DNA of 64,000 nt, from positions 310,001-374,000 of the forward strand of contig NZ_JAHHUL010000002.1 in NCBI RefSeq assembly GCF_019008365.1, given 5' to 3'. Origin of the DNA: Phosphitispora fastidiosa. Lineage in GTDB: Bacteria; Bacillota; Thermincolia; Thermincolales; UBA2595. A program made the position numbers and the translations under genes. The notes beneath the pieces are model-generated. The model was not told the origin of the DNA and made no database searches. It worked only from the letters and a program-made list of their open reading frames with translations. Numbering within the stretch: the first letter of the stretch is position 1; every line of letters begins with the position of its first letter. This document shows, piece by piece, positions 18,252 through 62,051 of the stretch.

Positions 18252-18270
18252 AAAGTTCTTGTTTATTAAA

Positions 18271-18392
18271 GAAAAGTGTGCAAATGTTTTCCTCAGTGAA
18301 ACGATTAAAACGTCTGCCGGTCCGCAATCCGCGAAGCGGGAGCGGATACCGGCTGAGTTTTTGTTTCACGAGGAATTATTTGCACACTTTTC
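18271..18392. repeat. palindromic repeat element, copy A
   Basis: A 122-nt interrupted palindrome just downstream of era. Outer arms GAAAAGTGTGCAAAT (18271-18285) and ATTTGCACACTTTTC (18378-18392) are perfect. Inside are a TTCCTC/GAGGAA pairing, GTGAAAC/GTTTCAC, and a core hairpin CCGGT-CCGC-AAT-CCGC-GAA-GCGG-GA-GCGG-AT-ACCGG. It shares the TTCC, GTCTG, GTCCG and GAGGAAT blocks and the overall architecture with copies at 54622-54887 and 61857-61974, while its arms differ in sequence. Family not recognised. No flanking target duplication is visible. Confidence 0.85.
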
Positions 18393-18419
18393 ACTTAGGC
18401 CTTTCACAATAGGACAATT

Positions 18420-19331
18420 TCATCTATCCTTGAATTCATAGCCCAGGTTCCGGAGGATGCTGTCTTTATTTCTCCAGTCTTTCTTGACCTTTACCCACAG
18501 GTCCAGATAAACCTTTGAGCCAAGAAGATTCTCTATGTCTTCCCGAGCCATCCCCCCGACCTTTTTCAGCATTGTGCCATTCTTGCCGACAACTATTCCC
18601 TTTTGTGATTCTTTTTCCGTAAAAATAACTGCCCTTACATAAATCAGATCATTATCTCGCGGTACAATTTCCTCTATTTCAACAGCAACCGAATGCGGAA
18701 TCTCTTCCCTGGTAAGGTGGAGCACCTTTTCCCGAATTATCTCCCGGATTATGGCCTGTTCCGGCTGGTCTGTCACCATACCATCCGGATAATACATCGG
18801 CCCTTCGGGAAGCAATCCTGATACCAGTTTGATGAGAGTATCCACATTGTCCCCTTCAAGGGCGGAAACCGGGACTACCTCACGGAATTCCATGATGCTG
18901 CGGTACTTATCTATCAGGGGAAAGAGATCATCTCGTTTTACCAGGTCAGTCTTATTTATTACCAATATTACCGGTGTTTTTGTCTGGCCGAGAACATCTT
19001 TGATATAAAGGTCACCAGGCCCAATCTCTTTTTCTGAGGCTTCAATCAGGAATAAAATAACATCAACTTCCTTCAGAGCATTCCGGGCCACTTTTACCAT
19101 ATATTCACCCAGCTTATGTTTTGGTTTATGGATACCCGGAGTATCAATAAATACCAACTGAGCCTCATCAGTTGTCAGGATTGCCGTAATCTTATTTCTG
19201 GTTGTCTGGGGCTTGTCAGACATGATGGCCAGTTTCCGGCCAACCATGCGGTTCATCAGGGTGGATTTCCCCACATTGGGCCTGCCCACCAAAGCTATGA
19301 ACCCGGATTTGAATCCCACTTTGGTATTCAT
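18420..19331 (-). CDS. era: GTPase Era
   Basis: Ras-like GTPase that binds the 3' end of 16S rRNA and is needed for 30S assembly. The 303 residues contain G1 [10 protein letters not shown]3 DTPGIH, G4 NKTDLV and a C-terminal KH domain ([31 protein letters not shown]). ATGA overlap with the cdd stop implies coupling. In Bacillus, era is followed by yqzL-recO; here the restriction island and deoC intervene. Confidence 0.97.
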
Positions 19332-54514: not shown

Positions 54515-54621
54515 TTTAACCACTCCTTGTCTACCCAATTATATTCGGCAGTCAAGGCATTTATGACCTTTTGCCTCCCTGGTCCCGTAATTAAATGAGG
54601 CGTTACTTTTTTATGCATGGA

Positions 54622-54887
54622 TTTAGGAAGGGGCAGATGTGTTCCGGAAGAACGAGTCTGACGTCCGTTTGTCGGTTCCCGCTATGCGGGAACCGGTCAG
54701 GGGCCTCCCCGATTCGTCGGAGTCTCACGCTGGTTTTTAGTGTGAGACGACGGTAACGAATTGGGGACCAAACTGAGTCGTCAGGGGGTCCCCCCAATCC
54801 GTCGAAACGGCGGCCCTTCTTAAGGGTCGGGGTTTCGGTAACGGATTGGGGGCCCGTTCTGGAGGAATATATCTGCCCCTTCCTAAA
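54622..54887. repeat. palindromic repeat element, copy B (large multi-hairpin form)
   Basis: A 266-nt structure between spoIIP and the holin-like gene. Outer arms TTTAGGAAGGGGCAGAT (54622-54638) and ATCTGCCCCTTCCTAAA (54871-54887) pair perfectly. Next come TTCC/GGAA, then AGAACG (54649-54654)/CGTTCT (54855-54860). The interior has three hairpins: CGGTTCCCGC-TAT-GCGGGAACCG (54673-54695); H2 at 54707-54766; H3 at 54791-54852. H2 and H3 look duplicated: both open CCCC-x-AT-x-CGTCG and close CGGTAACG-x-ATTGGGG. It shares GTGTTCC, AGTCTG-x-CGTCCGT and GAGGAAT with copies A and C. Open frames inside it are artefacts. Confidence 0.85.
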
Positions 54888-54894
54888 AATAGGT

Positions 54895-54930
54895 AAAAAA
54901 AGAGGCCCCATTTGGTTATGGGACGCTCTT
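54895..54930 (-). terminator. intrinsic terminator after the holin-like gene
   Basis: Minus strand: AGAG-x2-TCCCAT, loop AACCAA, ATGGGG-x2-TCT, followed by a run of T. It lies 22 nt after the stop codon and immediately before palindromic copy B. Confidence 0.7.
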
Positions 54931-61782: not shown

Positions 61783-61814
61783 GCAGAGGCGGCCTGATGA
61801 CAGGCCGCCTCTGC
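61783..61814. terminator. terminator-like hairpin, copy 1
   Basis: GCAGAGGCGGCCTG, loop ATGA, CAGGCCGCCTCTGC: a perfect 14-bp stem. It is identical at 31 of 32 positions to the hairpin at 62020-62051; the two bracket palindromic element copy C. Neither strand has a strong U run here, so its function as a terminator is uncertain. Confidence 0.6.
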
Positions 61815-61856
61815 TAGCTGACAAAGTCAACAAAATTGAGCATTAAAGTGTTATAA

Positions 61857-61974
61857 GACAGGGGTAGATGTGTTCCAGAGGGCGGAGTCTGTCGTCCGTC
61901 CGGCCCGCGACCGCAAAGCGGGAGTGGATGCCGGCGGAGATGTAGCCCGCCCGAGGAATTCATCTACCCCTGTC
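61857..61974. repeat. palindromic repeat element, copy C
   Basis: 118-nt interrupted palindrome. Outer arms GACAGGGGTAGATG (61857-61870) and CATCTACCCCTGTC (61961-61974) are perfect, then TTCC/GGAA, GGGCGG/CCGCCC, then a core CCGGC-CCGC-GA-CCGC-AAA-GCGG-GA-GTGG-AT-GCCGG. The core matches copy A position by position, with the T:A pair of A replaced by C:G, a compensatory change. It is bracketed by a duplicated 32-nt hairpin. Confidence 0.88.
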
Positions 61975-62019
61975 CTTGGTTACATTTTAATACTTAAAAA
62001 ATATAGAGTTTGTCAATCA

Positions 62020-62051
62020 GCAGAGGCAGCCTGATGACAGGCCGCCTCTGC
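62020..62051. terminator. terminator-like hairpin, copy 2
   Basis: GCAGAGGCAGCCTG, loop ATGA, CAGGCCGCCTCTGC; one mismatch in a 14-bp stem. It lies 17 nt after the stop of the PCP_red-CGGC gene (minus strand). Near-identical to copy 1 on the other side of palindromic element C. Confidence 0.6.

Follow-up and report, generated by a model that had tools for sequence, protein, structure and literature searches.

The bcr1 repeats of the Bacillus cereus group are short, dispersed, mobile and share a conserved RNA-like fold, and their target duplication is short and fixed. Target duplications are usually of near-fixed length, which is dictated by the transposase. Repetitive extragenic palindromic (REP) elements are single hairpins of 20-40 bp carrying a GTAG or CGTC tag (PMC3733652). 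The insertion sequence IS1272 replaces target stem-loops (Wan et al. 2017, PMC5678879), which are unrelated in sequence and measure 21-85 bp. The structure-dependent transposition model in that paper also has a drawn branch, proposed but not observed, where the whole stem-loop would be duplicated through joining at its 5′ feet (PMC5678879). Here, we analyzed a 64,000-nucleotide stretch of the Phosphitispora fastidiosa genome (contig NZ_JAHHUL010000002.1, positions 310,001 to 374,000; hereafter, the window), in which an initial annotation made from the sequence had pointed out three intergenic palindromic elements. These palindromes belong to a family of short, mobile DNA elements that had not been described before and whose RNA-like fold is conserved. 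The family is real and new, a structured repeat resembling a miniature inverted-repeat transposable element (MITE), whose unusual feature is the duplication of a whole target hairpin.

The hairpin duplication is clearest in one subfamily, type B. Type B copies have terminal inverted repeats CAGGCTGTTGACAAA / TTTGTCAATAAGCTG (CAG...CTG), and on either side there is one copy of a gene-terminator hairpin whose sequence is specific to the locus. At seven type B loci (L040, L042, L044, L045, L052, L054, which is the window copy at 61857, and L055), an empty orthologous site holding one hairpin is found in G001 or G002, the two same-genus genomes used for this comparison. At L052, it is G002 that is filled and G001 that is empty. 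The type B duplication extends from one foot of the hairpin to the other, with a length that varies between about 17 and 38 bp, for example 22 bp at L042 (GTGGCAGGTATGTTCCTGCCAC), 21 bp at L052 (CAAGGAGAATACTTCTCCTTG), about 36 bp at L055 and 32 bp in the window. The initial annotation had offered movement by an unseen transposase as one reading of these palindromes, and the empty sites demonstrate the mobility part of it for the type B subfamily.

A wider survey of flanking DNA points in the same direction. Direct flanking repeats with a score of at least 13 are present in 21/139 copies, against 0.65 expected with swapped flanks, and 19 of these 21 copies fall among the 29 that are type B-like. 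The repeated stretches contain hairpins, mostly within a few bases of the element; outer inverted repeats around copies partly restate these palindromic duplications and are not separate evidence. Type B ends are present in G000 and G002, with one marginal match in G001, while none were found in G003 or G007, a distribution that points to recent spread. Two further loci, L287 (about 2026-2069) and L288 (about 2075-2131), are type B remnants that have lost the folded core by internal deletion and retain the adjoining terminator-like hairpin. Their isolated ends were considered as traces of an autonomous copy, which was rejected since they are internally deleted and no transposase was seen. The left flank of L055 contains a member of a different family of dispersed repeats (GGAAATGACCGGGAATGGAATATGGTNNGGCATTGTACCG...), also present at L281 (G002) and L277 (G001), which has dozens of matches in both of these genomes.

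The family is much larger than the three elements first reported, which represent about 1/20 of its copies in P. fastidiosa. DNA searches of this genome returned 67 pieces with the main copy (54622-54887) as query and 46 with the type B end. A covariance model, built from 13 copies of the same genome with the 18271 copy excluded and giving rough E-values, produced 92 matches over both strands, corresponding to ~65 distinct copies. It recovered the excluded 18271 copy with an E-value of 1.4e-13, whereas the main copy scored only 0.014 because of its inserts. Most copies are about 120-270 nt long, dispersed and devoid of coding capacity, as is typical of MITEs. Further copies, for which the initial annotation had suggested a search of relatives, are present in 10/10 tested genomes of the order Thermincolales (10 to about 65 per genome), and the named matches come from the Thermincola ferriacetica metagenome-assembled genomes BL5_bin.1 and BM5_bin.4. 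The 289 genomes searched from elsewhere in the phylum yielded no member, under stricter filters that may miss weak matches, and neither did plasmid and phage collections. The initial annotation knew of no published family that fits, and this holds: Rfam gave no match at gathering score, the weak matches lying far under it, and searches of open-licence papers returned no account of the family.

The consensus fold, exemplified by L010, starts with an outer stem (P1) of ~21 pairs closed by GTTCC/GGAAT, followed by a GGA/GGA internal loop and a second stem (P2). Inward of P2 come the partly paired GAGTCTGNCGTC / GTNGCC, a third stem (P3), a 3-nt bulge on the 3′ side, which reads GUA in many copies, and an apical hairpin. 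We assessed this fold in an alignment of 33 copies from ten genomes, aligned on sequence only, with the structure taken from one of its rows. Standard pairs fill 94.2% of the cells, and shifting the partners by one base lowers pairing to about 42%. Two-sided changes are seen at 35/51 pairs vs 22.7 in shuffles, and the covariation score is 0.436 vs 0.185; the shuffles do not preserve relatedness, which makes this a strong result but not a formal test. Conserved wobble pairs (e.g., a U-G in 32/33 copies), conserved mismatches and the GUA bulge persist across the ten genomes. Moreover, three genomes share an almost identical core at the site orthologous to 18271, and their arms differ yet remain matched (GTGTGCAAAT/ATTTGCACAC, GGGGCCAAAT/ATTTGGCCCC and GGAGCCACAT/ATGTGGCCCC). 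Selection on a folded molecule, as the initial annotation had proposed, is therefore supported by the two-sided changes, the covariation score and the in-step change of the 18271 arms. Pairs that covary beyond shuffles are what a functional RNA would show, and a folded DNA substrate would show the same. The most likely reason for keeping the core folded is that the element is recognized as an RNA or as single-stranded DNA.

Matched arms could also arise without selection, by palindrome (quasipalindrome) correction, in which template switching during replication keeps the arms matched and produces covariation. The in-step change of the arms over three pairs, around a fixed core, at the 18271 site is consistent with this, as is L014, whose outer inverted-repeat arm on one side looks like a copy of that on the other. 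At this locus (and at L246 in G002), the core is flanked by a 34-nt outer inverted repeat beside a gene end, and the G001 orthologue (L275) has just the gene-end arm, with a score of 25 vs 7.5 for the other arm, which makes it probable that the second arm is an inverted copy of flanking DNA. Since fold-back synthesis primed by a hairpin would both copy the L014 arm and correct arms, palindrome correction is retained as an alternative account of some of the arm matching, which may in part be its product rather than that of selection. However, the same process would erase the conserved mismatches, GUA bulge and wobbles of the core, and as an account of the covariation as a whole we regard it as rather improbable. 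At L128 (HGW-Firmicutes-14), one side of the copy has an apparent tRNA gene end, recognized by eye, part of which recurs inverted on the opposite side.

The position of the copies bears on which strand matters and on whether the core could be a host RNA. With genes called as simple open reading frames, the P. fastidiosa loci lie downstream of genes, in convergent (21), co-directional (30) or divergent (1) arrangement, and the median distance to a gene 3′ end is 61 nt. The strand on which the model is defined is antisense to the genes at 24/30 co-directional loci (p 0.001), and host read-through would therefore yield mostly the other strand. Among variable pairs, G-U outnumbers A-C by 46 vs 22 cells (p 0.005, cells not being independent), a bias suggestive of a single folded strand, with RNA the better fit; the wobbles and the strand orientation together are a hint of one functional strand. 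The core might then be a small RNA or 3′-end RNA element with a cellular role, its mobility being incidental. The strong covariation, the conserved wobbles, the G-U excess, the presence of the family in every genome of the order and the retention of the 18271 copy at its orthologous site in three genomes are all compatible with such a role. But sister genomes differ in the number and positions of their copies, several of the insertions occurred recently and the model strand opposes most of the co-directional host genes, so that we consider a host RNA unlikely. Both type B consensus ends carry TTGACA-18-TATAAA directed inward, promoter-like by sequence only, the match being degenerate in the window copy.

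Taken together, these are probably non-autonomous, MITE-like elements of the Thermincolales, ~120 nt long without inserts, with a folded core selected on one strand and an insertion that duplicates a hairpin. When a terminator hairpin is extruded, a candidate DDE-type transposase, supplied in trans, would join the element ends (CAG...CTG) to both strands at the 5′ feet of that hairpin, which would then be duplicated in its entirety by gap repair. If so, the target structure would set the duplication length, and insertion at a terminator would be harmless because one intact copy stays. We infer the DDE transposase and the role of the core fold in movement; type B sites look like the whole-stem-loop-duplication branch of the published model. 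A further reading, in which the target is read as a hairpin, the hairpin feet set the duplication length and a transposase needs the folded RNA or single strand of the element as a working part, is speculative and has a low probability in our judgment. Several observations weigh against the preferred interpretation. Outside type B, the duplication is clear in just a few copies, and most show no clear direct repeat; a promoter scan at the window type B copy found nothing; the G-U excess is significant by cells only, amounting to 16 vs 8 (p 0.15) by columns; and no transposase gene with matching ends was found in any searched relative. Nor was an autonomous transposon sharing the type B ends found, although such a partner may lie outside these assemblies.

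Two enzyme classes were considered as mobilizers. The elements might be MITEs of an IS1182-family insertion sequence, a known DDE enzyme family with members that insert at palindromes. IS1182-type fragments or genes are present in G000, G004, G005 and G009; the fragment in P. fastidiosa has a palindrome (TCTGACGTCAGA) as its own insertion site, with an apparent duplication; and the hairpins targeted by type B vary in sequence and length, as expected when a palindromic target is read by structure. On the other hand, the IS1182 genes and fragments (L200-L205) have other ends, none of them of type B, and IS1272 is reported to replace stem-loops without duplication. This origin is plausible, though we put it at somewhat less than an even chance. 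IS1182 genes with matching ends were sought as the source, and none were found in the searched genomes. The P. fastidiosa fragment (L200, contig C2:13841-13975) encodes part of an IS1182-type transposase (PF05598), has ends CTGTGTGAAAACC/GGTTTTCACACAG and lies within a family copy, with the palindrome at its insertion point present on both sides. The many intergenic palindromes and the presence of IS200-like genes would also suit REP or bacterial interspersed mosaic elements mobilized by a REP-associated tyrosine transposase (RAYT, a Y1 enzyme). This is very improbable: the family hairpins have no GTAG foot, and the long target duplications are not produced by Y1 single-strand transposition. 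The REP layout of a 20-40 bp hairpin with a GTAG or CGTC tag at its foot was not found, the elements differing from it in size and arrangement. RAYT/IS200 enzymes were rejected as mobilizer, the three Y1_Tnp genes of P. fastidiosa having an ordinary IS200/IS605 look and none being flanked by family copies.

Hairpins are also gained and lost inside the element. At the site of the main copy, G002 has a simple copy and G001 has no element; compared with G002, the main copy has two extra hairpin modules, D2 and D3 (about 72 bp). Each replaces three bases after GT (AAC and AGC, respectively) and has the GTCG/CG-GTA-AC bulge found in the simple core, and D3 is frequent in type B copies. The modules were either gained in the P. 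fastidiosa copy or lost in G002, as whole units. In L007, L020, L022 and L025, the apical hairpin has a third palindromic insert nested in it, which is about 50 bp long (CTCTTAGCGCTTTAGCGCTTAGAG...TACCCTTGGGGTA or a variant). At two intergenic sites (L086 vs L279, L071 vs L280), a different core type is present in another species, which would reflect either reoccupation of a hot spot or module exchange.

Within the window (Table 1), the three elements were found where the initial annotation had placed them (18271-18392, 54622-54887 and 61857-61974), with arms matched inside each copy (GTGTGCAAAT, GGGGCAGAT and GGGGTAGAT) and the core covariation correctly described (CCGGT/ACCGG vs CCGGC/GCCGG). 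Two of its details needed revision. The third element is real but bigger than noted, and sits between two copies of the duplicated hairpin. The string said to be common to all three is present, but its spacing varies (GTCTG-x-CG-x-CCG in two copies, GTCTG-x-CG-xx-CCG at 18271). For this reason a plain string is a weak detector, and the consensus GTCTGNCGNNCCG was dropped as a means of finding the family. All three copies fold far better than dinucleotide shuffles, none of which equals them (z -11.7 for 54615-54895, -11.3 for 18268-18395 and -10.2 for 61855-61976).

Table 1. Features of the three family copies in the window.
Feature	Position	Strand	Basis
Main copy, composite of simple core and two extra hairpin modules	54622..54887	+	z -11.7; orthologue comparison
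Main copy, P1 5′ arm TTTAGGAAGGGGCAGATGTGTTCC	54622..54645	+	sequence, fold
Main copy, P1 3′ arm GGAATATATCTGCCCCTTCCTAAA	54864..54887	+	sequence, fold
Module D2, hairpin CAGGGG..CCCCGATTCGTCG..GACGGTAACGAATTGGGGACC, replacing AAC after CCGGT	54698..54769	+	absent from G002 orthologue; same module in L005-L007
Module D3, hairpin CAGGGGGTCCCCCCAATCCGTCG..TTTCGGTAACGGATTGGGGGCC, replacing AGC after GTCGT	54782..54854	+	absent from G002 orthologue; in about 20 other P. fastidiosa copies
Simple copy downstream of gene 18420-19331, P1 arms GAAAAGTGTGCAAAT / ATTTGCACACTTTTC	18271..18392	+	covariance model built without it, E 1.4e-13; G001/G002 orthologues
Complete type B element enclosing the reported palindrome, ends CTGACAAAG..TTTGTCAATCA	61815..62019	+	comparison with other type B copies
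Type B copy, folded core	61856..61975	+	covariance-model match, 103 bits
Duplicated terminator hairpin, left copy GCAGAGGCGGCCTGATGACAGGCCGCCTCTGC	61783..61814	.	sequence; G002 empty site with one diverged hairpin
Duplicated terminator hairpin, right copy GCAGAGGCAGCCTGATGACAGGCCGCCTCTGC, 31/32 identical	62020..62051	.	sequence; empty/filled site alignment

The family is a large, order-wide structured repeat outside Rfam, in which hairpin modules are gained and lost as units. Comparison of naturally empty and filled sites reveals duplications that span about 17 to 38 bp and are bounded by the feet of terminator hairpins, an outcome that was unobserved in the IS1272 study (PMC5678879). This offers a testable example in which a DNA enzyme would read secondary structure within a chromosome, and a safe-harbour strategy in which the terminator is copied, not broken.

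Among described systems, an IS1182-type enzyme is the closest known precedent. As with IS1272/IS1182, the target stem-loops are unrelated in sequence and vary in size. However, IS1272 replaces the stem-loop with no duplication, whereas the Thermincolales element, which is non-autonomous and whose ends were not found on any IS1182 gene, duplicates the entire hairpin. The resemblance to bcr1 lies in being a dispersed, mobile, folded repeat, but the duplication of bcr1 is short and fixed while that of type B is variable and takes in the whole hairpin. REP elements are likewise palindromic, intergenic and repeated, and CGTC repeats are also without a known transposase (PMC3733652). In contrast to these single hairpins with a fixed tag, the Thermincolales element is about 120-266 nt long, consists of several helices and, in type B, duplicates its target.
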